From: a virus
DNA length: 43,552 nucleotides
IMG/VR virus record: IMGVR_UViG_3300032093_000257
Location: 1-43,552 of that record
Direction: 5' to 3' (one strand)
Both the position numbers and the translations under genes were made by a program. Below the pieces are notes generated by a model. It did no database searches. It was not told the origin of the DNA and saw only the letters and a list, made by a program, of their open reading frames with translations. Of this stretch, positions 608-43,552 are shown piece by piece (the stretch's first letter is position 1; each line of letters opens with the position of its first letter).

Positions 608-856
608 ATGGAACCCTTGATGACTTTTGGTGATGCGCTTGAGGCGCTGAAGATGGGGCTGCATGTGCAGCGGGCGGGGTGGAACGGCAACGGCCTGTTC
701 CTTACCTTGCAGGTGCCTGATAAGCACAGCAAGATGACGCTGCCCTACATCTACCTGTCCTACCCCAACGACTCGCGCACAACGCCGGGGGCGAGGGTGC
801 CCTGGCTGGCCAGTCAGACGGACATGCTGACGGACGACTGGCGCATCGTCAGTTGA
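608..856 (+). CDS. tad2: Tad2-like (DUF2829) anti-Thoeris protein
   Basis: This 82-residue protein matches the DUF2829 layout: an opening MTFGDALEALKMG helix (residues 5-17), the GWNG motif (24-27), a variable beta-rich middle, and the diagnostic end PWLASQTDMLTDDW (65-78) followed by RIV. Tad2 is a DUF2829 protein known to sequester the signalling nucleotide of Thoeris, and some relatives also bind CBASS cyclic dinucleotides. It would act in the host cytoplasm early in infection. AAAGGAG stands 6 bases before the ATG. It is the last gene of the plus-strand block and directly precedes a promoter and terminator pair. The family assignment is secure by motif; which messenger it binds cannot be read from sequence. 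Confidence 0.8.
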   Translation: MEPLMTFGDALEALKMGLHVQRAGWNGNGLFLTLQVPDKHSKMTLPYIYLSYPNDSRTTPGARVPWLASQTDMLTDDWRIVS

Positions 857-881
857 CACGGCCGCTCAGCGGTCGTAGAGT
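853..881 (+). promoter_or_regulatory. Sigma70-type promoter with palindromic spacer
   Basis: The -35 box TTGACA (853-858) is a perfect consensus. A 17-base spacer (859-875) and the -10 box TAGAGT (876-881, 4 of 6) follow. The -35 overlaps the last codons of the Tad2-like gene. The spacer itself is a 17-base near-perfect palindrome (15 of 17 positions, the centre being unpaired), which looks like a repressor operator. Transcription would start near 888 and point away from the Tad2-like gene into a stretch without a plausible ORF. Confidence 0.6.
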
Positions 882-887
882 CGGGAT

Positions 888-973
888 GTCCAGCCCTGCT
901 GGATTGTTCTCCCTGAAGGAAGTACCAAAGAGGTTTGATCCCCGGTGCGTAACAGCATCGGGGATTATTTTTT
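888..973 (+). ncRNA. Candidate small RNA between promoter and terminator
   Basis: The 86-base stretch lies between a consensus-like promoter and an intrinsic terminator and has no credible reading frame. Its predicted RNA starts with a short hairpin CCAGC-CCT-GCTGG (890-902). An unpaired, purine-rich middle follows (about 903-937, including CTGAAGGAAGTACC), and it closes with the terminator stem. This promoter, seed and terminator plan is that of a bacterial or phage regulatory RNA. The alternative is that the element is only the 3' end of the plus-strand messenger with a fortuitous promoter. Its 3' end is antisense to the stop codon of the small minus-strand gene at 965-1138. Confidence 0.4.
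938..973 (+). terminator. Intrinsic terminator, plus strand
   Basis: ATCCCCGGTGC (938-948) pairs with GCATCGGGGAT (955-965), with one G-T pair, across the loop GTAACA, and is followed by TATTTTTT (966-973). Read on the minus strand the stem lacks a T-tract, so it mainly ends plus-strand transcripts. It lies at the meeting point of the convergent transcription units. Confidence 0.75.
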
Positions 974-1153: not shown

Positions 1154-4100
1154 TTAACGATTCAGTTCGTTGAAGCGCCGGATGATGTCGGCTTGGGCTT
1201 GACTGCGTTCCGTGCGAAGCTCGGTGCGCTCCTCGGTGACGCCCTTCTCGACGCCGGCCTTGGTCAGCGCAGCGCCGCGCTTGCGGAAGCCCTTCTCCAC
1301 CTCGACCCATTCGTCGTAGAGGTCAGCGATCTCTTGCTGCTCGGGCGTGAGTTCGGTCCCGGCGTTGGCTTCGCGCTTGGCTTCAAGCCCCGCTTGCTCG
1401 AACTTGCCGAACTCGCGGATGATGGCGTTGCTTGTCCCGGCGATGAGGCTGCTGACCACGGGCGCTGCAACCTCACGGCCTTGGCGCTCCTTGTTCGGGT
1501 TGTCGATCATCACCTGTTGGGCGACGCGGAATGGTCCGAGCGCGAAGGTGCCAAGCATTTCCTTCATCTGCTCAGGCGCCATGTCCCAGCCTGTCATCTG
1601 GCGCAGTTCCCGCGCCATCCATTTGTACTCTTCGGCGGTCAGCGGTGCGCCCTGCTCCGACTTGAACTGAGCCTTGTCGAGGAACTGCTCACGCACCAGT
1701 TCCTGCCCCAAGCCGCCCCGATTGATGGCCACATTCAACGGCGACTTCAAGATGGTGGGCGCAAACATCTGTGCCGCTGCCTTGAAGTTGTCGTCTTTGA
1801 TCTTGGGCGCTTCGATAGGTGCTGCGAACTGTTTGAGCGCATCAAACGCCAGTGAGTTCGCCGCCTCCAAACCCGTCTTCTCACCGTTGAAGTATTCACG
1901 GCTGCGCAGTGCCAAAAGATTTGCAACGCTAGGCAGGCCGAAACCGAGCGGCAGCTTCAGGAACTCGCCGTTGGGTAGCGGCAGCGGCAGCGACCTCTCC
2001 TTGGCGTAGTCGTCGAGCAAGTCAAACTTGTTCTTGCCGAGCTCCTCATCTTCGCCGGCCAACGAGGCCAACAGCGCGTGCAGCGCCATCAGCCCGGCGG
2101 TGTACACGAGCGCTCTGTTACGCCCAACCGGGGTCTTCAAAGTCTTCAGCAAGTTCACGCCGCCTGTGACTGTCGGCTGTGCGAAGGCGTAGAGCGCCCG
2201 AACGATCGGCATGGCTGTACCGGTCTTGCGGAAGTTCATCAGATCGAGCGCACCCGCAGCGGCGTCTTCCTTGCTCATGCCCTGGTTGCGCAGAGCGGCG
2301 TATGCCGACAGCGGTGCCACCGAATCGAAGGCGTCGTTCCACATACCAACGTAACCTGCAAGCGCGCGACCGGATTTGAAGATCCTGTTTTCGCCGACTT
2401 TCTTAACCTCATCAACGAAGTCTCTGCGGTCGCGGGCCAGGAACGTGCCGTACTTGCTGCCGCCACCGCCGAACTCCTCGAACTCGCGCAACAGCAGCGC
2501 GTACTTCGAGTTGGGCAGCGGTCTACCCATCGCCTTGTTGAAGTAGAGCGATGCGATCTCCTTGGCCAAACCAGACTTGAGCGCCGTACGGAGCATGTCG
2601 TTTGCCGCCTTACCGGAGTCCACAGGACGGCCAGACGCGGTGCGGTAGTTGCGGGCGCGCATGTTCTCGCTACGCTCCCATATATCGCGCGCCATGTTGA
2701 TAGGGCCGAACGGTAGATTCCAGCGCGTGACCAGCGTTGAGAACAGACGTGTGGGGGTTTGGATCGCTTGTCCCAGCGCGCTGCTGGTTTCGAGGTTCTC
2801 TTTGCGTAGCGCACCGAGTTCCGCGCCGTCGCGGATCGAGTACCCCACGGCCGAGCCGTCGGGCTGGTTGACGATGATGAGGTTGTCGGACAGGCGGTCG
2901 AGTGCGGTGATGGGCACGCGGCGGATGCCAGCGGCTTGGCGCTGGGCGTCCGTCATCTGGTTGTAGGCCGTCTCGATCAGGTTCGTGAAGGGCCTCCAGC
3001 CGGCCGCAGAGGCAGAGCGCTGCATGCCGCCCAGCGTGGCCGTGATGCCGTCGTTGGCGAGGCTTCCTGTGCGACCCATGAGCCGCCGTTCGCGGGCCAC
3101 GTTCGGCGCTCTGAAGCCAGAGCCCAGAACGTCCTGCTCGAACCCCTGCTCGGGGTCGCCTGTGGTGGGCACGTACTGCGAGTTGCGGCTGAGCTTGTCG
3201 ATGAAGTCGTTGCGTGCAGCCTCGATCTGCGCTTGCGTGGAGCCTGGAGTTGCCGAGAGTTGCTGCAGCCGCGCCATCTCGGGCGCCAGGGCTGCAAGCT
3301 CCGGCGAGAACAGCACCGCGTTGGCGGGGTCGATGCGGCCGCTCTCGATGTCGGTGGCCATGCGGAAGGCATTGAGCCGGTAGACCTGCTGGGCAACGCG
3401 CTCCAGCCCCTGGCGGCCGAACAGTTGCTCGGCACGCTGCATGAAGGCGTTGGCCTGGGCGTTGTTCATGCCGCCGGCAAGCCCCACGGCGCGCCCCGAG
3501 GATCCGACGTGGTTGTCCACGCCTTCGCTTTGGTTCAGCGCGAACTCGCGGTCTGCTTCGGTTGCGCGGGCATCGTTGTAGGCGGTCTGGGCGGTGGTGA
3601 TCTCATCGCGCAGCGCGTCCAGTTGATCTTGAGGTGCGTTGTTGCGTTGAGCAGTGGTCAGCCGCTGCTGAGCGTTGGTCAGGTCTTGCAGGGCATCGGC
3701 CGTGGCTTGGCGGTCGGAGGCCAGCATGCGCGCATTCTTGATGAGCGCATAGCGGGCCGTGACCCAGTAGCCAGCATCGCGGATCACATCCTCGACTGTG
3801 GCACCCCGGTCATTTCGCCGCCGCGCCTGGAACAGGGCATCGAGCTCCGTGTTCAGTTGGTCGCCGCCGTAGCGGGCGCGGGCCTCGGCCAGGATGTTGT
3901 CGCGCACGTTGGGCGCGGTGTACATGGCGCCGACGATCCGGTCGCGCAACCCTGTCGGGATAGCCAGCGACTCGACCCACCGCACAACAGGGATGAGCGA
4001 GTCTGCGAAACTTTCTGTCAACACATTGCCGGCACGCTGCGCGAGTTCACGCAGTCTTTGCGCCCGAACTTGCCGTGAGAGAACCCGGCTAAACAGTACT

Positions 4101-7100
4101 TGCCTGAATTGGCTCCGCAGAGTTCCAGCCAGTGGCGCTTGCGCACCGGCACGAACGCCGGCCAGCGTTGCGCCGGGAGCGCGGGGGCTCACCGGCTGAG
4201 CAGGCGGTTGTGCAGGCGGTTGTGCAGGCGGTTGTGCAGGCGGTTGTGCAGGCGGCTGTGCAGGCGGCTGTGCAGGCGGCTGTGCAGGCGGAGCGGGCGG
4301 CTGCCCCTGCATGAACACCGCATCGTCTTCCGGCTCATCATCCAGGATGCTGCGCTGCCCACCTTCTGGCGTGTCGCGCATGAACAGGCGGTTGGTTCCT
4401 TGCTCAGTCAGTGAATCCGCCAACTGCTGCGCCTGAGCATCGTCCGTCGTGGCCATCAACTCGCGCAAGATGCCTACAAGCCGCAGGCCGTCAACAGTCG
4501 GTCGATTGATGAAGTCTTCGTTTTGTCCGGAGATCCGTGCAGACTGGGTCTGCAGCCAGTCGTAGACATCAGGGATGGGGGTGCGGTTTGGACCCACCAC
4601 CAGTTGACCTGTAGCGAAATCAAACCCTACCGGCCTAGCAGCCGGGGTTATGCCGCTCAGGAACGTCTGCTCTGTGCGTTGGAACAACCCCTCAAGATTA
4701 AAGCTCGTTCCGAACGAAGGATCAGGGTTATCTACGTGGCGCGTCGGTAGCTTGAGCAAGCGCTCAGCACGTTGCAGGTCGTTGAATTTGTGCCCCCATC
4801 GCAGGATGGCGCGCAGGCGATTCAGCGGCATGCGGCGCTTGTTCGCATCGAGCAACCCGGTGACGGTTATCCCCAATCCAGACTGCACGGCGGCACCGTA
4901 CACCGCGTCGTAGAACGGTGTACCAACACCGCTATTAGCCGTAAAGCCTGCGGCATAAAAATGTGCATCGTTACCGTTGTTATAGCTGAAATCAAATGTA
5001 GCTCTTTGACTAGATGTACCGCCGTACGCATCAGTAAAGTCAAAATATATACTTTCGCCAACAACTCTCATTCCGCTGAAATAACTTCCACTCGGTGAGT
5101 TGATACCGAATAATTCTTTACCTACTTCTTGCTTTTCCGCTAATGTGTTTGCGTTGGCGAGATCAGCTTGCAGCTTTGTAGTTGCTGCAGTTGCGTATGC
5201 CTCAACGAATCGTCGGAACGCGGCTTGCTTCTCCGATGTACTGGCGGTCAGTGGTACTAGATCCGTCGGCAGCGACCCGGGCGGTAGGTAGCGGTCAGAC
5301 CTGAAGCCTTCGTTCTGTGCCACCCGCCCGGCAAGCATACGCATCAGGTTGAGTAGACGTTGGCGGGTGACGCCCAGCGGCCTCACAGGCTCGATGCGCC
5401 GTTGGGTGCGGTCGAGCGGGTCGTATGGTGTGCGCGGATCTGTCGGGCGTGTGATGCCCGCCGCAGGGGCCGGGGCAGGCGCTTGTGTGGGAGCTCGGGC
5501 CGCATCGGTTGCAGCAACGATGGGGCGCGAGGCTGGTACGGGGAACGACAGCGGCTGAACTGGCACGCCGACGCGGCCTCTGCTCCAGGTTCTTGAGGAT
5601 AGCCCGTTGATGACACGGCGCACCGCACGTCCGTGGTCGCGCACTTGGCTGACGGTCCAGCCGGTCTGGTCGCGCACCCACTGCACGTAGTCGCTGTCGC
5701 GCGATGAGCGCGTTGTGCCTGCCGCGATGTACGCCGCGCGGTCGATGTCGCTGCTGAACCCCACAGGGTGGGAGCGGTAGTACGGCGCAGCACCGCGCAG
5801 ATCCTGCGGCAGTTGCGGCAGGGCTGGTGCGGCAGGTGCCGGCGCTGGGGCAGGTGCCGGCGCTGGTGCGGGAGCGGGAGCGGCTACGGCATCTACGGTG
5901 ACGATGTTGGCATCGATCAGGTCGGCCATCGCCTGGGCGTTGAAGGTGCGGAATGTGCCCGGCGCCTGCGTAGCTTCCACGCGCACCGTGTTGGTGGCGG
6001 GGTCGATCGCTCGGACCACGTAGGTGTAGCCGCTGCCCGGACCGTTACTCCCGAACGGCCGATCTTGTTGCGAGTTAAGCCTGAATCGGTTTTCTACACG
6101 CCACGCCTGATCGGCCGAGGTGTGCGGCCGTGTCGCAGCGCCCGGAACGCGAGTCAGCGTTGCCGTGTCGGGCAGTGCGTCGAAGATGTCGCGCGCGGTG
6201 AACGACCGCTCCGAGCCGGCCAGTGTGCCGTCGGGGCGGTAGCCCACCAAGCGCACCGTGTTGCCGTCATCAGAGACGCTGGTGACGTTGTAGTAGCTGC
6301 CGTTGTTCTGGATCAGCCGGTCGCCAGCGCGCAGCCCTCGGAGCACGTCGCGCATCGTCTCACCCTCAATGACGCGCCGGTCGAGCTCATCCACCGTGAC
6401 GATGGTGGACTCGGTGGTCACGGGTGTGGGCGCAGGCTCGGGTGCGGGTGCGGGCGCAGGTTCGGGTGCGGGTGAGGGCGCGGGTTCGGGTGCGGGTGCG
6501 GGCGCGGGTGCAACGGCTGCCGCAGCGTTTGCCTCAGCCTCTTCTTGGGTGTTGCCGTAGAAGAGATCGCGCCCGTTCACGGATTGAGGTAACTGAACCG
6601 CCCACGCCACCTCCGTCCATTGGTTGCCGGGCGGGTACGTCAGCGTACCGGCGGGCAGCGATGGGTTGTTCGGCGCAGTTCCAGCCGCAGGCGCGGGTGC
6701 AGGTGCGGGTGCGGCAGTTGAAAGGTTCAACCCGAGGTCGAAGTACATCCGCACAATCGCGTTCGCAGTCGCGGTGATGTACTGCTCCGGGATATTGCGT
6801 CCTTGAGTTAAACGCCGCGCTAGATCCAACGCCTCTTGCGCCACGGACGGAAGGTTGTTGTTACCCGGTGTCAGTTGCCGCGCCAAGGCTTCGTCATCGA
6901 GCGGTCCCGTCGGCAAGGGCGCAGGTGCGGGTGCGGGTGCGGGTGCGGGTGCGGGTGCGGCCGGGGGCTGCGCAACGGGCGCAGGAGGCGTTGGAGCCGG
7001 TGGGGTGGGGGCTACCCCTTGGGTGGTCGTGTCGAGCCCACCTGGGGTCCGTTGGACGCCCATCGCGGTCTGTGTTTCCGCCATCGCTTCGGCGGCTGCG

Positions 7101-10100
7101 CGGGTCAGCAGGGTGCTCAACGCGCCGGGTGCGACTTGCAGGTTGGGGTTGACCAGACGCAGGATGGCCTCGACGGCGCGAGACATCAACGTCAGCAGCG
7201 ATCCGCGCTGCGGAGCGTTGAGCAACCGCTCAGCCGTCGCCCGCACAGCGGGAGGCATAGCGTTGAGGTCGTACTGCTGTTGGGCTAAGAACACCAACGC
7301 CTGCGGTCGGAACATCTCAGCCAACACCTCTGCGTTACTGCTGGCAGCGTATACGGCCGGGTTGAGGTTTGGAATCTGGGCGCGGATGTAGTTCAGCAGC
7401 AAGCCGATTTCACGGCCTTGCGGCGTCCCCGCGATAGCGTTGAGCCCGCGCACTGTCAGCGCGTGCAGGTACTCATGTGGAACTGTAGATGCAGTAGTGC
7501 TAGGGTTGAAGCCTACTGCGTGGTTAGCTCTGGTGTAAACGCCTCTGTAGCTGGGCGCAGTTTGAGAATACGAAACTGTAGGCAGCGGTATGCCAGTCTG
7601 CGTAAACAGTGAAAGCACAGTAGCCGCTGCTTGTCTGTTGGCAGATCCAGCGTTCTGATCGGTTGCCACCGACTGGAGAGGGTTGGTAGACGTGCGCACC
7701 GCTTCTGCCCAACCAGAAGTAGCGTTACGCACTTCGAGCACCAGCCCCATGTCGTCGCGCATCCGGCGTAGGTTTTCAGGAAGCTGATCGCTCGGCAGAT
7801 TGGTATACGCATCGCGCTGCTCAGGCGTCATCCTTCGGATGAGCGTGTCGGCTTGAGTCAAGGCCGTGATGCCGCCCTGCGCATCGCCGGGCTGAATACC
7901 GGCCAGAACGGTCTGCGCTTGCGTCTCGATCTGCGACAGGTCTGCAGGTGCGGGTGCTGCTGGCGTGGGTGCAGGCGCTGCGGGCGCAGGCAACGTAGGT
8001 GCAGGTGCGGGTGCGGGTGCGGGTGCGGGTGCGGGTGCGGGTGCGCCTGTGAGCGCCTGCATAGCTTGCTGTTGACGCTCGATTCGCCGTTGCTCGAAGT
8101 CCGCAGCCGTCGGGGCTGCGGGCGGTTCAGGCAGTGCCGGCGCAGGCGTACCGCTCATCGGCTCATAGTTACGAGTGCGCTGCGCGAACTGAGTTACGGG
8201 AGCGCGCAGTGTGGCAATAATATCGTTTGCTTCTGTGAGCGTAGTTCTAGCAAGGGGTGTAAGTTGTGCGGGGTCAGCTAAAGTTACACCACCGTCACCT
8301 GCAGATACAATGTTTATAAACGTACCGTCGCGCAGCTTTAAGCGCTGACCTAAACCTTCACCATTAACACCAAGAAGTAAACTGTTAAGCCCGTGCGCTG
8401 CAGCTAAACCTGCTTCTATTGTTTTACCAGAAGTAGCCGCGAGAGACGAGATGATGCCTGTATTCAACTGCATCGCAGTGTGCATAGCTTGAGGATCTAC
8501 CTCAGCTTCAGCATCTCGAATACGAGCCAAACCTGTCTCACGGTTAAGCACCAAGTTAGATTGCTCGGCGGCTTTACCGCTACGAGCAGCCGTGAGCTTC
8601 CCGTTGGCATCGCGGATAGCGACAACATCGCCTTGCTCTTCAACCGCACCGAACAACTTGCGCCCGCCAACGGTGGCACCCTTCACCCCGCCGGCCGTAG
8701 CGGCGCCCGTCAGAGCGCCCATAGTGCCGGCTTCGACGGCGCCCTCGAACAGGCCCTGCTCCAGTTGCCCTTCGCGCAGCGCGACGTTCTGAACGACCTG
8801 CGCACCACCTTCCTCGACGAACTCCTGTGCAGCTTCACCGAGTAGCGGCTTAACCACTCCTGCTGCTGCGCGCACATAACTACGCTCTGCCGTCTCGCTG
8901 GCCAGCTTTTGGCTGAACTCACGCAGCGGCGTGCCGGGCACCATCGCGGTCAAGCCGTAGCGTGAGAAGGCTTGGTTGATGGCAGTGCGCACCGGCCCAG
9001 ACAGAGCGCCGGCCTGCGTTGCAGCCCGCGCAGCCAAGCGCCCGGCACCGATCAGCGGTTCAACAGATCCAGCCGCAGCGCCAATGCCTCGCGCCATCAA
9101 TTCTGAATCTTCGACCAAGCGAGACGTGAAGGCCGTCTTGGCTCTGGCGCGATCACCGTTGAACTGCTGCACGAGCTCCCGGAACTGCTGGCTCTTGTCC
9201 AGTTCCGCATCCGGCATATTGGCGATCTGCTCGGCGATCCCGCCGGCAATCTCGGCCGAGGTGAGCTCTTGCCCGGCCGCCATACCGCCAGTGATACCAC
9301 CGACAAGGCCGCCCACGGCTGCGCCTTTTGGCCCTGCTATGGCACCACCCGCCGCCCCGCCAGCAGCGCCACCGCCGACCGACACGCCCATCGCGGCAAG
9401 CGTTGACGGCAGATTGCCGAGGACGTTGCGAACCGGGTCTGTCCAGAACCCCTTAGCGCCAAGCTCCGCTTCTTGCGCAACCGTAAGCTCTGCACTTCCG
9501 GTCTTGCGCATGTTCTCTTCTTGCATCTTTGCGCGCAAGAATTCGATACGCTTCTGCTCGTTCTTGGTGAAGTCGCTGAGGTTTGACTCGAACTGAGCTT
9601 TATCTTTAGCGCGCTGAGCTATAGCTGCAGCACGCTCTTCATCCGTCTTAGCATCACGAATCTGACGGCCGGTCCACCAGTTCTTTACGGTGAATGCTGC
9701 GGTGTCGTAGATGTCATTGTCGATCCACGAACTCTTCGGCTGCGCTCCTAGCGAAGCGCGAGTCTGAGCGTCGATGGTCTTGCGGGCAGCGGCGATGTCG
9801 GCCGGCTTCATGGGCCGGCCGGTGGTTTGCTGCACCCGAGCGACCGCCTCGTTCACCTGGGCATCGACCCAGAGTTTGCGCTGGTTGGCTTGCTCCTCGA
9901 AGGGCAGCGCCTTCCACTGATCTGACTCGCGAACCTCGGCCCAGGTCTTGCTCGGATCCACGTAGAGTTTGGGCGCTTCCTTGCCCGGCACTGCAGCGGC
10001 AGCGGCCGGGTTGACGGGCTCACCGAGCCTCGCGTTGACGGCGTCCTGGAGGGTGAGCGGCGCAGCCTGCTGCGCGGCCCGGTCTTCGCGTCGTTGCGCA

Positions 10101-10384
10101 GCGTCTTCCTTGCGTTGCGCGGCCTCGGCGCGGCGCGTGAGCGCATCGGCTGCACGCATCGCGGTGAGGTCGATGAGGCCGTCTGCACCGCGCTGGGGTG
10201 CGGGTGCGGCGGTGATAGCGGAGAAGGGGTCTACCGGGGCTGCAGCGCGGCCACGCGGGGCTGCAGCGGGTTCGCCGAAGGCGAGGTCAGGCGTGGTGAG
10301 ATCGATGAGCCCTGAGCCTTGTTCGGCGCCTTTTTGACGGAGTGCGCGGAAGATGGCGTTGGGGTCGAAGAGATCGGTTGCCAT
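1154..10384 (-). CDS. Giant polyvalent/ejection virion protein, 3076 aa
   Basis: The gene takes up about a fifth of the window. Order of visible parts: N-terminal low-complexity region; charged helices; a glycine-zipper hydrophobic stretch (about 330-372, GGAAGGAAGGAIAG); an HEYLH zincin motif (970-974) with acidic residues 45-50 further on (E1019, E1023) that could be the third metal ligand; several Ala-Pro linkers; two beta-rich repeats around 1320-1500; a PPAQ linker (about 2030-2062); long helical regions; and a conserved C-terminal region (TRWNLPFGPINMARDIWE, then a hydrophobic segment near 2760-2783) like that of phage polyvalent proteins (LPD38 type) and large internal virion proteins. 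Such proteins are packaged and injected with DNA, where they aid passage and counter host defence. A promoter lies just upstream. The domain names come from memory and would need profile searches. Confidence 0.8.
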   Translation of the reverse strand: MATDLFDPNAIFRALRQKGAEQGSGLIDLTTPDLAFGEPAAAPRGRAAAPVDPFSAITAAPAPQRGADGLIDLTAMRAADALTRRAEAAQRKEDAAQRREDRAAQQAAPLTLQDAVNARLGEPVNPAAAAAVPGKEAPKLYVDPSKTWAEVRESDQWKALPFEEQANQRKLWVDAQVNEAVARVQQTTGRPMKPADIAAARKTIDAQTRASLGAQPKSSWIDNDIYDTAAFTVKNWWTGRQIRDAKTDEERAAAIAQRAKDKAQFESNLSDFTKNEQKRIEFLRAKMQEENMRKTGSAELTVAQEAELGAKGFWTDPVRNVLGNLPSTLAAMGVSVGGGAAGGAAGGAIAGPKGAAVGGLVGGITGGMAAGQELTSAEIAGGIAEQIANMPDAELDKSQQFRELVQQFNGDRARAKTAFTSRLVEDSELMARGIGAAAGSVEPLIGAGRLAARAATQAGALSGPVRTAINQAFSRYGLTAMVPGTPLREFSQKLASETAERSYVRAAAGVVKPLLGEAAQEFVEEGGAQVVQNVALREGQLEQGLFEGAVEAGTMGALTGAATAGGVKGATVGGRKLFGAVEEQGDVVAIRDANGKLTAARSGKAAEQSNLVLNRETGLARIRDAEAEVDPQAMHTAMQLNTGIISSLAATSGKTIEAGLAAAHGLNSLLLGVNGEGLGQRLKLRDGTFINIVSAGDGGVTLADPAQLTPLARTTLTEANDIIATLRAPVTQFAQRTRNYEPMSGTPAPALPEPPAAPTAADFEQRRIERQQQAMQALTGAPAPAPAPAPAPAPAPTLPAPAAPAPTPAAPAPADLSQIETQAQTVLAGIQPGDAQGGITALTQADTLIRRMTPEQRDAYTNLPSDQLPENLRRMRDDMGLVLEVRNATSGWAEAVRTSTNPLQSVATDQNAGSANRQAAATVLSLFTQTGIPLPTVSYSQTAPSYRGVYTRANHAVGFNPSTTASTVPHEYLHALTVRGLNAIAGTPQGREIGLLLNYIRAQIPNLNPAVYAASSNAEVLAEMFRPQALVFLAQQQYDLNAMPPAVRATAERLLNAPQRGSLLTLMSRAVEAILRLVNPNLQVAPGALSTLLTRAAAEAMAETQTAMGVQRTPGGLDTTTQGVAPTPPAPTPPAPVAQPPAAPAPAPAPAPAPAPLPTGPLDDEALARQLTPGNNNLPSVAQEALDLARRLTQGRNIPEQYITATANAIVRMYFDLGLNLSTAAPAPAPAPAAGTAPNNPSLPAGTLTYPPGNQWTEVAWAVQLPQSVNGRDLFYGNTQEEAEANAAAAVAPAPAPAPEPAPSPAPEPAPAPAPEPAPTPVTTESTIVTVDELDRRVIEGETMRDVLRGLRAGDRLIQNNGSYYNVTSVSDDGNTVRLVGYRPDGTLAGSERSFTARDIFDALPDTATLTRVPGAATRPHTSADQAWRVENRFRLNSQQDRPFGSNGPGSGYTYVVRAIDPATNTVRVEATQAPGTFRTFNAQAMADLIDANIVTVDAVAAPAPAPAPAPAPAPAPAAPALPQLPQDLRGAAPYYRSHPVGFSSDIDRAAYIAAGTTRSSRDSDYVQWVRDQTGWTVSQVRDHGRAVRRVINGLSSRTWSRGRVGVPVQPLSFPVPASRPIVAATDAARAPTQAPAPAPAAGITRPTDPRTPYDPLDRTQRRIEPVRPLGVTRQRLLNLMRMLAGRVAQNEGFRSDRYLPPGSLPTDLVPLTASTSEKQAAFRRFVEAYATAATTKLQADLANANTLAEKQEVGKELFGINSPSGSYFSGMRVVGESIYFDFTDAYGGTSSQRATFDFSYNNGNDAHFYAAGFTANSGVGTPFYDAVYGAAVQSGLGITVTGLLDANKRRMPLNRLRAILRWGHKFNDLQRAERLLKLPTRHVDNPDPSFGTSFNLEGLFQRTEQTFLSGITPAARPVGFDFATGQLVVGPNRTPIPDVYDWLQTQSARISGQNEDFINRPTVDGLRLVGILRELMATTDDAQAQQLADSLTEQGTNRLFMRDTPEGGQRSILDDEPEDDAVFMQGQPPAPPAQPPAQPPAQPPAQPPAQPPAQPPAQPPAQPVSPRAPGATLAGVRAGAQAPLAGTLRSQFRQVLFSRVLSRQVRAQRLRELAQRAGNVLTESFADSLIPVVRWVESLAIPTGLRDRIVGAMYTAPNVRDNILAEARARYGGDQLNTELDALFQARRRNDRGATVEDVIRDAGYWVTARYALIKNARMLASDRQATADALQDLTNAQQRLTTAQRNNAPQDQLDALRDEITTAQTAYNDARATEADREFALNQSEGVDNHVGSSGRAVGLAGGMNNAQANAFMQRAEQLFGRQGLERVAQQVYRLNAFRMATDIESGRIDPANAVLFSPELAALAPEMARLQQLSATPGSTQAQIEAARNDFIDKLSRNSQYVPTTGDPEQGFEQDVLGSGFRAPNVARERRLMGRTGSLANDGITATLGGMQRSASAAGWRPFTNLIETAYNQMTDAQRQAAGIRRVPITALDRLSDNLIIVNQPDGSAVGYSIRDGAELGALRKENLETSSALGQAIQTPTRLFSTLVTRWNLPFGPINMARDIWERSENMRARNYRTASGRPVDSGKAANDMLRTALKSGLAKEIASLYFNKAMGRPLPNSKYALLLREFEEFGGGGSKYGTFLARDRRDFVDEVKKVGENRIFKSGRALAGYVGMWNDAFDSVAPLSAYAALRNQGMSKEDAAAGALDLMNFRKTGTAMPIVRALYAFAQPTVTGGVNLLKTLKTPVGRNRALVYTAGLMALHALLASLAGEDEELGKNKFDLLDDYAKERSLPLPLPNGEFLKLPLGFGLPSVANLLALRSREYFNGEKTGLEAANSLAFDALKQFAAPIEAPKIKDDNFKAAAQMFAPTILKSPLNVAINRGGLGQELVREQFLDKAQFKSEQGAPLTAEEYKWMARELRQMTGWDMAPEQMKEMLGTFALGPFRVAQQVMIDNPNKERQGREVAAPVVSSLIAGTSNAIIREFGKFEQAGLEAKREANAGTELTPEQQEIADLYDEWVEVEKGFRKRGAALTKAGVEKGVTEERTELRTERSQAQADIIRRFNELNR
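4201..4296 (-). repeat. 12-base tandem repeat encoding PPAQ linker
   Basis: Eight consecutive 12-base units of CAGGCGGTTGTG type (plus-strand reading) occur; the first four are identical, the next three share a T to C change and the last is degenerate. They encode a (PPAQ)n spacer in the giant virion protein, probably an extended, flexible linker. The two sequence blocks suggest growth by slippage or unequal crossing-over. Confidence 0.9.
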
Positions 10385-10411
10385 AGGTACGTCCGAGGTG
10401 GGGTCACCTCG

Positions 10412-10440
10412 ATTCTAGGGGTCCGATCCCTGTAGATCAA
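10412..10440 (-). promoter_or_regulatory. Promoter for giant virion gene
   Basis: On the minus strand TTGATC (10435-10440, 4 of 6 to TTGACA), a 17-base spacer and TAGAAT (10412-10417, 5 of 6 to TATAAT) stand just upstream of the ATG at 10384. The spacer contains the inverted repeat AGGG-GTCCGAT-CCCT (plus strand). The -10 box lies in the decamer CTAGAATCGA, which also occurs in the other intergenic gap at 18901-18910. Confidence 0.5.
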
Positions 10441-14503: not shown

Positions 14504-16125
14504 CAGAGTTCCTTGGTGGATGGGGCAAGGCTGACCATCTTCACCTTGGCGGTGCCGGAAAGAACCCACTTGAAACTCTGCCCTGTGGCCCACAGGGGCA
14601 GCGCAAAGTGATCGCTCTGAAACAGGCTTTCGTCCAAGGCTGGGAAGTCATCGCAATATAGCTGAATTCGTTCAGACCCGGGAGCCATCAAGACCTGGAG
14701 CGCACCAAAATTAAACGGCACGCCGATAAGCGATTCACTGGACTCGTAGGTGTGGGGCAGCAGCGTGTTGCCGCGATCCCACTCCTCGACGCTGGCGCCG
14801 AAGCGCAGCAGCAAACGACCGGTGCGCGTGACGAAGATCTCGTCTGGGCGCAGCGACAACTCGGTGTGGTGTTCGAGCTCCGCGTTGGTGCCTGCGCCGT
14901 CCTTGATGGCCATGCAGAAGGCGCCCATGCGGAAGAAGCAGAACAGGCGGCCGAGGTGGTAGCCGATCTTGGCGGTGTCGGGGTGCAGGGCTTGCCAATC
15001 GTCGGGCGCGTAGTGCGAGGACGTGATGATGATCGGCGCGTTCCTGCCGCCCATGTAGACGAGGCCGTGGTGCGTGGGATAGACGGCACCTGACGGAACG
15101 GCCGTCATGCTGCGGAAGCCCGCCCCGACGATTGGCAGGGCCTCGGGCATGCGGATCGCGCGCCGGCACCCAGCGTCCTTGCAGTCAACGGCGCCGGGCA
15201 CCACGTAGGGCGCACCGTCGGTGGCCACGTAGATGATGTCGTTGCTCTCGACGATGGCGCGGACGGTGTCGTCAAGCTGGATCTTGTGGACCCAGTTGTG
15301 GTAGTTGTTGTTCTGGCTGAAGTACAGATACCGACCGTCGAACCCGGCAAGGCAGTTCATGGACTGGATCCACGTCATGCCTTTGAGCGTTGCGGGCGGT
15401 GGTTCGACGAAGTCTTCGCCGAGCGACTCGGTGAGATCGAAGTCGATCTTAGTATCGACGTAGGACAACTGCGTGGCGGGGATGGTGTCCACCAGCATCC
15501 AGGCCGCGTCCACGGTGTTCTCGCTCTCTTTGAGCGGAGACTCGTAGCCCGTGACCGTGCGGTAGATGCGGATCTCTTGAACGTCCCACCCACCGGCCGG
15601 GATGGTCCAGCCTGACACCTGTACGGATGAGCCGTCTTCGACGATGACCTCTTCGCTGGGCTCGGAGAGCGCGGAGAAGTTGCCGAACGAGTCCACGTAC
15701 TGGTAGGCGTACTGCCGGGGCACAGCGCCCTTGGAGAAGGACTCCACGCCCATCGCGGCCGGGCGTCCCTCGGGGCAGGGCAGCCCCAGGCGGTAGACGG
15801 TCGGGTCGCACAGCGCATCGAAGGTGATGCGCACGGGGTATGGGTAGTCGTTGTAGTTGGTGGCGAAGACGTGCTGTTGCTCGGTGGAGCCTTCGGCCCA
15901 GCTTGCGCACTTGGACGACTCCATCCAGCAGCAGTTGAACGCCTGATAGATCGACTTCGCGTTGCTGGCGACCTCATGCACCTTGCGCGTGGAGCGCCAC
16001 GACTCCAGCGTTCCGTGCCACAGCTTGCAGTCCACCGCCCGGGTGGCCGCGCCGTTGCGGACGAGGTGGTCCGCTTGGCGCGGTGTGCTGCCGCTGAAGA
16101 CGTTGGTGACGATGTTGCGGGCCAT
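14503..16125 (-). CDS. Tail nozzle / tail tubular B-like protein
   Basis: This 540-residue beta-rich protein has repeated blade-like segments such as GRYLYFSQNNNYHNW, DIIYVATDGAPYVV, GLVYMGGRNAPIII and EIFVTRTGRLLLRF. The layout is that of the beta-propeller nozzle proteins of short-tailed phages (T7 gp12 type), which form the distal tail tube and carry the adhesins. The N-terminus (VTNVFSGSTPRQADHLV) and a fibronectin-like region (about 135-250, YAYQYVDSFGNFSALSEPSE) fit this. It precedes the gp13-like and internal virion genes, as in T7-like order. No Shine-Dalgarno is evident, so coupling from the gene 6 bases upstream is likely. Several cysteines (CC at 65-66, CKDAGC near 315) are unusual for the family. 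Confidence 0.6.
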   Translation of the reverse strand: MARNIVTNVFSGSTPRQADHLVRNGAATRAVDCKLWHGTLESWRSTRKVHEVASNAKSIYQAFNCCWMESSKCASWAEGSTEQQHVFATNYNDYPYPVRITFDALCDPTVYRLGLPCPEGRPAAMGVESFSKGAVPRQYAYQYVDSFGNFSALSEPSEEVIVEDGSSVQVSGWTIPAGGWDVQEIRIYRTVTGYESPLKESENTVDAAWMLVDTIPATQLSYVDTKIDFDLTESLGEDFVEPPPATLKGMTWIQSMNCLAGFDGRYLYFSQNNNYHNWVHKIQLDDTVRAIVESNDIIYVATDGAPYVVPGAVDCKDAGCRRAIRMPEALPIVGAGFRSMTAVPSGAVYPTHHGLVYMGGRNAPIIITSSHYAPDDWQALHPDTAKIGYHLGRLFCFFRMGAFCMAIKDGAGTNAELEHHTELSLRPDEIFVTRTGRLLLRFGASVEEWDRGNTLLPHTYESSESLIGVPFNFGALQVLMAPGSERIQLYCDDFPALDESLFQSDHFALPLWATGQSFKWVLSGTAKVKMVSLAPSTKEL

Positions 16126-16131
16126 GAGCTA

Positions 16132-17049
16132 TCAGGGCGGCGACGGTGATGTGTTGTCCACGTAGGCGCCGAGCAGGTCGGTGCCGGAGTACACGAAGTA
16201 CGTGTTTCCACCCGTGGTTGGCAGTGCGATGCTCCCGCCAGCGGGCACAGTCAATGTCTCGATGACGTTGCCGGCGCTGTCTTGCACCGTGATAGTTCGG
16301 GCGGACGTGCTGGAGTTGTAGGCCAGATTGCCGTTGATGCCCACACCGTAGGCGTTAGAGTCGATCTTCTGCTGGAGCTCAACGATCTCGCTGTCAACGT
16401 ACTGCTTGAGGGCTGAGTAGAAGGCGTCGAGGTTGAGGGTCAGTGTGACGCCGCACGGATCCGTGATCGTGCCGTTCTCGGCTGCACCGAACACGATTTC
16501 GTTCGCATGTGTACCTGTGGTGGTCGTCTCGATGCTCGTGACGATCGACGGCGGCATCTGCTTGACGAGGCCGTCTTCAACCTTGAACTGGCAGACGGTG
16601 CCGGTGAAGCCGCTGGGGCAGCAGTCATCGCCGTTGCCCGTAGGCGCGGTGAAGCGGAAGATGGCAGCCGAGGAGGTGCCGATGTTCTCGACGCTCCAGC
16701 TTGTGCCGGTGCCCTCGATGATGATCGGATCGACCGTGACGGTGGAGCCCGGCCCGGGGTCGCCCTTCGGGCCTCGCGCGCCCGTGCCGCCGCTGCCGCT
16801 GCTCGTGCCGCCGCAGCAGTCATCCGGCGTGTAGACGGGCGTCTCGCCAGCGTAGATGCTGGAGATGCAGCCGTCGAGGTTGACGACGATGGTGGCGTTC
16901 GCAAACGTGCCCGGGGTGAGCGAGACGTTCTGGCACTTGGGCAGGGGCAGCCCGCTGTCGTCAGCGCAGCCGCAATCGCTGCACCCGCTGCTGTTGCTGC
17001 CGCAGGGCGATGCGCTCGTGCAGTCTCCGGTGGGCTTGTCGCATGCCAT
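16132..17049 (-). CDS. Cys-rich structural protein with short collagen-like stretch
   Basis: This 305-residue protein has a strikingly cysteine-rich start: ten cysteines within the first 80 residues, among them CSDCGC and CC. A short collagen-like run (GARGPKGDPGPG, about 91-102) follows, and then a beta-rich body with helix KQYVDSEIVELQQKID near 215-230. Collagen-like and Gly-rich connectors with beta-structured ends are common in phage tail fibres and head fibres. The start overlaps the upstream stop (TAATG). It lies between connector genes and the nozzle gene, so a tail or head-fibre role is likely. I do not recognise the family. Confidence 0.6.
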   Translation of the reverse strand: MACDKPTGDCTSASPCGSNSSGCSDCGCADDSGLPLPKCQNVSLTPGTFANATIVVNLDGCISSIYAGETPVYTPDDCCGGTSSGSGGTGARGPKGDPGPGSTVTVDPIIIEGTGTSWSVENIGTSSAAIFRFTAPTGNGDDCCPSGFTGTVCQFKVEDGLVKQMPPSIVTSIETTTTGTHANEIVFGAAENGTITDPCGVTLTLNLDAFYSALKQYVDSEIVELQQKIDSNAYGVGINGNLAYNSSTSARTITVQDSAGNVIETLTVPAGGSIALPTTGGNTYFVYSGTDLLGAYVDNTSPSPP

Positions 17050-18900: not shown

Positions 18901-18910
18901 TCGATTCTAG
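18901..18910 (-). promoter_or_regulatory. Candidate promoter element after capsid terminator
   Basis: In the 132-base gap between the 72-aa gene and the head-protein gene, just past the terminator, the minus strand reads CTAGAATCGA. It contains TAGAAT, a good -10 box, but only a weak -35 (TTTCTT, 17 bases upstream). The same decamer forms the -10 region of the promoter before the giant gene. Confidence 0.35.
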
Positions 18911-18920
18911 CGATGCTACG

Positions 18921-18951
18921 CCCAAAAAGAAACGGGGGCCGCAGCCCCCGT
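18921..18951 (-). terminator. Intrinsic terminator after head genes, minus strand
   Basis: On the minus strand ACGGGGGC pairs perfectly with GCCCCCGT across a four-base loop (stem 32-39 with 44-51 of the 189xx block), followed by TTTCTTTTT. It closes the scaffold, capsid and head-protein unit and should lower expression of the tail genes relative to capsid. Confidence 0.85.
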
Positions 18952-18972
18952 CCGTCTAGACCCTACGCGGGT

Positions 18973-19688: not shown

Positions 19689-20669
19689 TTAGACCTTGGA
19701 GAAGGCAACTGCGACAGCTTCCGGGCGGATGACGTGCGTGTCCCACACGAACTCACCAACCAGCGACCACTCGAACGGGTGCTCGTACCACTTCGAGTCT
19801 ATAACCTCGAAAGCGTGGAGCACTTGGCTCGGGTCCAGCATCAACACCGGGGCAATGTTGCCGGCAGCACCGTAGTTGCTGGCGAACAGTTGCATCGACG
19901 TGAACACCTCGAAGCCGAGGATACGGCCGATGTAGCCGGTCACAAATGCGTTCTTCTCAGAGCAGCACTTGTTGTACTCAGACATCATCTTCAGCGCCCA
20001 ACGCTCAAGCTGGATCGGCAGAATGATGATGGGGTTGCCACCGGGGCCAGGGCCTTCCTGATCCAAGTTGCCGCACATCATGCCGGCCTCTTGGGCGATC
20101 TGGCGGAAGTTGTAGAACAAATCTTCCAGGCCAGCCACAGAGTTGGCGTTCAGGGCGGTGGTGTCTTGCCAGCCCAGGTCGATGCCGTGGCTCATCTTGC
20201 CAGCGCTGTTGCCGACGTTGTCAGCAGAGGCGGAGGCCATGATCTTCGGGATCGAGTAGGCGTCGATCAGTTGGCGGATGCCGTTGTCCAGGCGCCGCTT
20301 GACTGACTCTTCCCACATGTCGAAGTTCTGGCACATGATGCGCCGGTCGTAGTTCGAGAGCTTCCACTCGAACTTGCGGCCTTGGCAGATGGTCATCGAG
20401 TTGGTGTCGATGCCAGGACCATCGAACACATCGGGGTGCTCGTTGTTCTGCCGGTCAGTGCCGAACAGGTTCAGAGTCTGTTCGATGCCGTAGATGACCT
20501 TGCCACCACACATCAGTTCTTCGGTGGACATGAAGTCCGACTTGGCAATCGCCGGCAGCAAGCTGCACTGGTGGTATGCCTGAACGATCTTTGCGGAGAT
20601 GCGGTCCGGTGCAAAGATGGAGCCTTTGATGTCGCCACCGTAGCCGCCACTGTTGACGTTGTTGCCCAT
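19689..20669 (-). CDS. Major capsid protein
   Basis: This 326-residue protein directly follows the scaffold gene and has the length and mixed alpha/beta layout of an HK97-fold capsid protein. It starts with a Gly/Asn-rich arm (MGNNVNSGGYGGDIKGSIF), has a helix-rich middle (WEESVKRRLDNGIRQLIDAY) and ends in a compact beta region (PFEWSLVGEFVWDTHVI). Nine or so cysteines (MCGG, CQGRK, MCQNF, MMCGN, KCCSEK) are unusual and could allow disulfide or metal cross-links. GAGGAAACTCAAA lies before the ATG. Assignment rests on gene order and size, since no short signature is diagnostic. It should be the most abundant virion protein. Confidence 0.75.
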   Translation of the reverse strand: MGNNVNSGGYGGDIKGSIFAPDRISAKIVQAYHQCSLLPAIAKSDFMSTEELMCGGKVIYGIEQTLNLFGTDRQNNEHPDVFDGPGIDTNSMTICQGRKFEWKLSNYDRRIMCQNFDMWEESVKRRLDNGIRQLIDAYSIPKIMASASADNVGNSAGKMSHGIDLGWQDTTALNANSVAGLEDLFYNFRQIAQEAGMMCGNLDQEGPGPGGNPIIILPIQLERWALKMMSEYNKCCSEKNAFVTGYIGRILGFEVFTSMQLFASNYGAAGNIAPVLMLDPSQVLHAFEVIDSKWYEHPFEWSLVGEFVWDTHVIRPEAVAVAFSKV

Positions 20670-37723: not shown

Positions 37724-38008
37724 TCAAAGCACCTGAACGAAGGTGTTCACAAGGGTCTGGATCTTCTGGACTTTCTCGACGCTGTCCTTGGGTAGATCCA
37801 GTTCAAGCGGCAGATGCCAGTAGACATCGCGCACCCCTGCGACCAAGCCACCTTCGGTGACAGTGTAGTCGCGAGAAATGCCGCCGCGTGAAACTTGGAG
37901 GACTACTGCGTAGTCCAGCAATTTCGTCACCGTTCCTGGTCCGCCAGCCCTGCGGCTGAACAGGGTATCCCCGAGTTTGACCGGGCTTCCGGCGATCTTA
38001 ATCGTCAT
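37724..38008 (-). CDS. Small head-tail region protein, 94 aa
   Basis: This 94-residue protein is beta-rich to about 70 (KIAGSPVKLGDTLFSRRAGG, KLLDYAVVLQVSRGG) and ends with a helix (DSVEKVQKIQTLVNTFVQVL). It resembles an SH3-like barrel with a C-terminal helix, a fold often used in connectors, but the match is only by layout. GGAG stands 8 bases before the ATG. It follows the portal gene after a 70-base gap with a possible promoter. No cysteines, unlike the genes that follow. Confidence 0.55.
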   Translation of the reverse strand: MTIKIAGSPVKLGDTLFSRRAGGPGTVTKLLDYAVVLQVSRGGISRDYTVTEGGLVAGVRDVYWHLPLELDLPKDSVEKVQKIQTLVNTFVQVL

Positions 38009-38042: not shown

Positions 38043-38072
38043 ACTGTAACGCATGCACGAAGCTAGGGTCAA
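38043..38072 (-). promoter_or_regulatory. Possible promoter after portal gene
   Basis: On the minus strand TTGACC (38067-38072, 5 of 6), an 18-base spacer and TACAGT (38043-38048, 4 of 6) stand in the 70-base gap after the portal gene and before the 94-aa gene. It could start the transcript of the adhesin block. Confidence 0.4.
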
Positions 38073-43216: not shown

Positions 43217-43552
43217 GCGCGGATCGTAACGGGCGTGGGGGAGAAGTGCAAGTGGGGGAATGCGCGGTTTATTTCGCGTAACTCGTAGCGCGGGGCGCTG
43301 ATTTTTATAGCGGGGTGCGCGTATAGGAATGGGGTAGGTGGGTGGAACGCGTGGCGCTGGTGCGCGGTGCGCGGTGCGCGGTGCGCGGTGCGCGGTGTGC
43401 GGTGTGCGTGGCTCGATGCGCGGTGCAGGAAAAAGCAGGGGGTGGGTTGTCACACACCGCGCCCCCGCTCCAGCGCGTAGGGGGGCGCGCATAGGCGCGC
43501 ACGCAACGCGCACCCGCTACGCGCAACGCACGCACGATGCGCACGCACGCGA
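43217..43552. other. Non-coding GC-rich leader region
   Basis: These 336 bases hold no credible gene. Contents: a heptamer tandem repeat (43361-43409), a TATAAA box on the minus strand (43304-43309) without a good -35, an A5 run (43430-43434), and a very GC-rich end with many CGCGC and ACGCAACG words (43480-43552). The long reading frames here have Arg/Pro/His-only composition and are accidental. It may contain a packaging site, an operator or a genome end. Confidence 0.5.
43361..43409. repeat. Heptamer tandem repeat upstream of small terminase
   Basis: Five exact copies of TGCGCGG stand end to end (43361-43395), followed by two altered ones (TGTGCGG, TGTGCGT), and another exact copy after a 7-base break (43117+306 to 43123+306, that is 43117 is not meant; the copy lies at 43417-43423). 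The spacing of 7 bases is strict. Iterated sites next to a small terminase can be recognition sites for packaging or for a repressor; here this is only position-based. Confidence 0.85.

Follow-up and report, generated by a model that had tools for sequence, protein, structure and literature searches.

Small RNAs (sRNAs) that arise from a promoter of their own at the 3′ end of an mRNA, and sRNAs encoded by phages, are both kinds that are already known, as described in the cited sections of two reports (PMC9438474, PMC12197685). In the first of these sections, MicX of Vibrio cholerae is an sRNA whose promoter lies within a coding gene or at the end of it and which uses the terminator of the mRNA (PMC9438474). 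VpdS of phage VP882 and PreS of phage lambda are phage sRNAs whose action depends on Hfq, according to the cited part of PMC12197685. RNA anti-CRISPRs (Racrs) are described in the section used here as solitary repeat units that are often located directly downstream of a predicted promoter (PMC10651486). No paper on an RNA encoded behind a Tad2 gene was found among the matches listed in the literature searched, which includes few subscription journals.

Here we describe a stretch behind a Tad2-like phage gene that is a plausible candidate for a phage sRNA, predicted from sequence. With the MicX type, as far as it is presented in the cited section, this unit has in common, by prediction, a promoter where a coding gene ends, the short RNA and a terminator used together with the mRNA; it differs in that the gene belongs to a phage, in that the unit is known here from sequence alone and in that no conservation was found. 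With VpdS and PreS it shares the character of a short phage-encoded RNA, but for these the source describes transcripts and either targets or binding to Hfq, whereas the RNA considered here is a prediction, likened to them by description only.

The analysed window is the whole virus record IMGVR_UViG_3300032093_000257, which has a length of 43,552 bases and is classified as linear. Reading the ORF lists by eye, genes of the plus strand are located at 1–856 and the main genes are on the minus strand, from 965 to 43,513. The final gene of the plus-strand group is the Tad2-like gene at 608–856 (PF11195, E 6.1e-22). Convergent with it is a minus-strand gene for a small basic protein at 965–1138 (phrog_2423), followed by a minus-strand gene at 1154–10384 that likewise faces the Tad2-like gene and encodes a 3076-aa protein with an LPD38 domain. 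The translation of this protein contains long proline-rich repeats with PPAQ and PAPA runs (window 4200–4300). Further genes encode an SLT transglycosylase, an internal virion protein, a portal-like protein, TerL and TerS. The closest phage records are remote; among the matches listed, identity in TerL does not exceed 38%. Short repeats are present upstream of TerS at the contig end, in the window (43513–43552), in the first ~120 bases of a near-identical contig (L162) and, with another repeat unit, in those of a further contig (L163); assemblies seem to break at these repeats.

A sigma-70-type promoter is predicted on the plus strand at 853–881, with the −35 element TTGACA at 853–858, the −10 element TAGAGT at 876–881 and a spacing of 17. 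Hexamers and spacing were found as claimed in the original prediction, and so was the position at the very end of the Tad2-like gene, the stop codon of which the promoter overlaps. The spacer contains an 8-bp inverted repeat. Scanning both strands, this is the sole site in the window that matches at least 10 of the 12 sigma-70 consensus positions; since 0.95 such sites are expected by chance (20 shuffles of the window, both strands), the one found is unremarkable by itself. Support for the promoter comes from two further intergenic sites in the phage genome that match its pattern, both on the minus strand, one before the gene of the 3076-aa protein (10412–10440) and the other before gene 37724–38008 (38043–38072). 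These promoter-like sites have TTGA, a spacer of 17–18 and TANARTCG in common with 853–881. The pattern TTGA-N18-20-TANARTCG occurs four times in the window compared to 0.03 expected, a number reached by none of 100 shuffles, and three of the four matches, 853–881 included, lie within the 871 intergenic bases of the gene list. The shorter TANARTCG is found eight times, four of them intergenic, against 4.0 expected. These statistics are too kind because the pattern was drawn up after the sites had been seen, and it is absent from the collinear relative described below (L167). In sum, the reading of this 10/12 site as the RNA's own promoter remains a prediction that gains support. The fourth match, at 16334–16363 on the plus strand, lies antisense inside a minus-strand gene and is either a chance occurrence or an antisense promoter.

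Downstream, an intrinsic terminator ending at 973 was identified as originally claimed, consisting of a 13-bp stem (936–967) and a tract of six U (968–973) on the plus strand. The hairpin, at −22.9 kcal/mol and with a z-score of −6.21, ranked top in our own two-strand scan of the window. A Rho-independent terminator, as expected of an sRNA gene at the 3′ end of an mRNA, is present here by prediction. It probably also ends the transcripts of the Tad2 operon. Moreover, read on the other strand, the U tract encodes the two final Lys residues (AAA AAA) of gene 965–1138 and therefore has a second reason to exist, while the stop codon TAA of the same gene makes up the end of the terminator stem. Among relatives of this gene, tested at 77 of 80 loci, four end in Lys-Lys, and none of the 77 combines an A-rich end with a hairpin next to it. 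The second-strongest terminator of the window (18902–18953) is directly followed by the promoter-like TAGAATCGA, and at the matching place in the collinear relative (L167, 7180–7260) a hairpin resembling a terminator and a stretch resembling a promoter can be recognized by eye.

Promoter and terminator have the same strand and direction. The promoter fits a transcription unit because the only site with at least 10 of 12 matches and the strongest terminator are located on one strand, 55 nt apart. By our own arithmetic, such a site would occur by chance in the 150 nt preceding the top terminator, on its strand, with a probability of ~0.002 (0.95 × 150/87,104), and it rises to ~0.015 if any of the eight terminators of −12 kcal/mol or stronger is allowed at a distance of 40–200 nt. 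As a class, promoter–terminator pairs are not enriched, since the fetched loci and the window together (175 promoters, 156 terminators, 1.89 million strand-bases) contain three pairs at 40–200 nt compared to ~2.3 expected, again by our own arithmetic.

The predicted RNA of ~86 nt extends from a putative start at 888, 7 nt past the −10 element, to 973 on the plus strand. In agreement with the original prediction, there is no credible gene in these 86 bases. The region is spanned by a formal ORF (853–1140, ATG at 885), which is not credible because its ATG precedes the predicted RNA start and it continues into the next gene in antisense orientation. Folding of 888–973 yields a z-score of −4.27, an excess that comes entirely from the terminator, since 888–935 alone reaches only −0.45 (equalled by 26.6% of 500 shuffles) and 936–967 the value given above. 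For a longer piece, 840–973, the z-score is −4.85; its fold contains a stem of 8 bp within the promoter spacer. The proposed 5′ hairpin exists at 888–904 (7 bp, 3-nt loop), yet it is no stronger than chance. The linker at 905–935, a possible pairing region, is ~59% unpaired on average and has a purine-rich part, but it is mixed in composition, with a CU run coming first, and not the purine-rich stretch that had been described. Target prediction with this linker, which had been suggested as a check, against 43 start regions of the phage gave a best value of −24.0 kcal/mol that 37% of 300 shuffled linkers matched, and the mean pairing over these regions was weaker than for 90% of the shuffled linkers. 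A tRNA search rejected a tRNA identity, and no known Rfam family reached its gathering score in the window. The anti-hemB RNA of Burkholderia (RF02837) shows a weak likeness over 897–972, in the 5′ stem, the CUCCCUG motif and the terminator, but identity with it was ruled out at 19 bits compared to a cut-off of 49.5.

We slightly favor the account that a discrete RNA originates from the promoter at 853–881, and from the sequence signals it is fairly probable that a short RNA is made from this stretch at all. Host RNA polymerase with the main sigma factor would start near 888 and stop at 973, and the product would consist of the 5′ hairpin, a linker with little structure and the strong hairpin of the terminator with its U tail, with the terminator at 936–973 serving both the small RNA and the transcripts of the Tad2 operon. 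A small regulatory RNA is possible because signals for beginning and ending transcription are predicted for the stretch itself and no protein is encoded by it. If active, the RNA would most likely be of this kind, its linker pairing with host mRNAs and its U-tailed terminator providing a possible Hfq site; nevertheless, a regulatory role must be regarded as doubtful, and regulation by pairing, a suggestion from sequence, is similarly tentative. The argument that a promoter at this place is hard to explain unless the RNA itself matters holds insofar as an orphan promoter–terminator unit is the best reading, but the importance of the RNA is conjectural: no conservation was found in the collections searched, phage-internal targets and structure outside the terminator are at chance level, and the terminator has a routine role at the end of the Tad2 operon.

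This routine role is the core of the strongest competing explanation, to which we assign a sizeable though minor probability: a plain operon terminator stops the Tad2 operon before transcription enters the convergent virion genes in antisense, and the promoter is a chance match or the relic of a lost gene, without a functional RNA. The genes converge here, and at such a border a terminator is expected; accordingly placed terminators, within 200 nt, follow the Tad2 gene at 12 of 78 loci scanned (of 80; L006 and L011 were dropped as too short). The chance-level fold of 888–935 and the expectation of about one site of this promoter quality per window fit as well. What this explanation leaves unaccounted for is that the promoter lies just where a transcription unit needs it, which has the chance of ~0.002 estimated above, and that its pattern recurs at other intergenic sites.

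The same 78 loci do not support the idea that related phages carry such a unit behind Tad2, because in that scan none has a terminator together with a promoter of at least 10/12, and only one, L010, has such a promoter. Tad2 genes are hence not generally followed by the RNA unit. Behind 79 Tad2 genes, the window included, two sites with at least 10/12 matches were seen compared to 0.73 expected, which is not significant; for perfect 12/12 sites, one was seen against 0.015 expected. A rough rule called a convergent gene behind Tad2 in 17 of 77 loci (of 80; L006, L011 and L056 left out), but eight of these calls are unreliable as they are based on frames overlapping the stop, and the rule missed L005, where by eye a convergent gene abuts Tad2 without a gap. 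An Rfam scan of 20 Tad2 loci also returned an RT-15 RNA (161.5 bits, L003 5160–5351) and a DUF2815 RNA (53.9 bits, L017 5629–5688), each near a Tad2 gene.

The Tad2 protein of L010 is 73% identical to the Tad2-like protein of the window. A perfect TTGACA-17-TATAAT begins 17 nt past its stop codon and is followed by a stretch of 132 nt (z-score −3.74), at the end of which are a hairpin of 11 bp and a weak U tract; a convergent gene for 929 aa comes next. A formal GTG frame of 70 aa crosses the RNA stretch. The two RNAs have no sequence in common, that of L010 had no match in the phage or plasmid records searched, and its best Rfam likeness is weak (FsrA, 23.5 bits, cut-off 80). By its predicted signals, L010 3257–3417 is a second orphan promoter–RNA unit, unrelated in sequence, and we counted this comparable unit behind Tad2 in favor of the orphan unit in the window. 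That some phages carry sRNA genes as anti-defence cargo, with an orphan promoter–RNA unit immediately after Tad2, where the convergent virion genes meet it, the window and L010 as independent cases and the RNA acting together with Tad2 against host immunity, is a more far-reaching idea that we consider improbable.

Relatives of the RNA were not found. Exact searches with a 20-nt piece of the linker among viral contigs (IMG/VR) and with a 24-nt piece among GTDB genome contigs gave no match, and the RNA remained unmatched when the region was compared by blastn to 50,697 phage records and 72,556 plasmid records; copies that have diverged escape an exact search, and the search tools may leave out close kin of the window. 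Searches through the C-terminus of the 3076-aa protein and through the plus-strand gene 336–593 found no relatives. TerL led to two short contigs, none containing the RNA region, and to no genome contig; alignment of TerL returned the same two and three distant ones, again without this region. The internal virion protein led to one collinear contig (L167 in G001), which matches the order of the window from the capsid region to the gene of the 3076-aa protein and in which the counterpart of protein 19689–20669 is 74% identical. At the end of this contig (L169), an open frame in convergent orientation directly adjoins the stop codon of the giant gene and leaves no gap for an RNA unit; we counted this lack of room at the matching place against the orphan unit. 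The contig, which may be a fragment, ends some 108 nt beyond the convergent junction, and Tad2 was not found in it. Judging from this one contig, the convergent layout may be old and the Tad2–RNA segment variable. The leader of the giant gene is capable of forming a hairpin in both phages, at 10385–10411 in the window (7 bp, z-score −2.77) and at 15400–15470 in L167, where a 13-bp stem includes the start codon and an alternative 8-bp stem upstream, recognized by eye, overlaps it; a translational switch is possible.

Another explanation takes the RNA as a cis-antisense element that is fully complementary to the 3′ end of the virion transcript and affects its decay or limits read-through. There is no evident minus-strand terminator after 965, the only minus-strand U-tailed hairpin between 560 and 965 being a weak one of 5 bp at 590–574, so virion transcripts would run through the stretch, and the promoter before the giant gene matches the pattern of 853–881. 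However, the reach of the minus-strand transcripts is presumed, a Rho-dependent end being equally possible, and the overlap with the coding part is just 9 nt. We consider this explanation unlikely. That the RNA is a Racr, mimicking the host's CRISPR repeat and working beside Tad2, is very improbable despite the similar minimal layout of a promoter and a short hairpin RNA in a phage next to an anti-defence gene, as described in the cited part of PMC10651486, because, judged against the Rfam models, the transcribed plus strand is unmatched by any CRISPR repeat model up to E = 10, the single weak hit (16.5 bits compared to a cut-off of 37, E 4.4) being located on the minus strand.

If the predicted RNA is made from the orphan unit, it would be a further phage sRNA, in a group of phages for which the searched collections contain hardly any relatives, and its gene would sit beside a counter-defence gene. 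Phage annotation that centres on proteins easily overlooks RNA genes. If the stretch is a terminator only, it would illustrate how little a promoter–terminator pair proves by itself.
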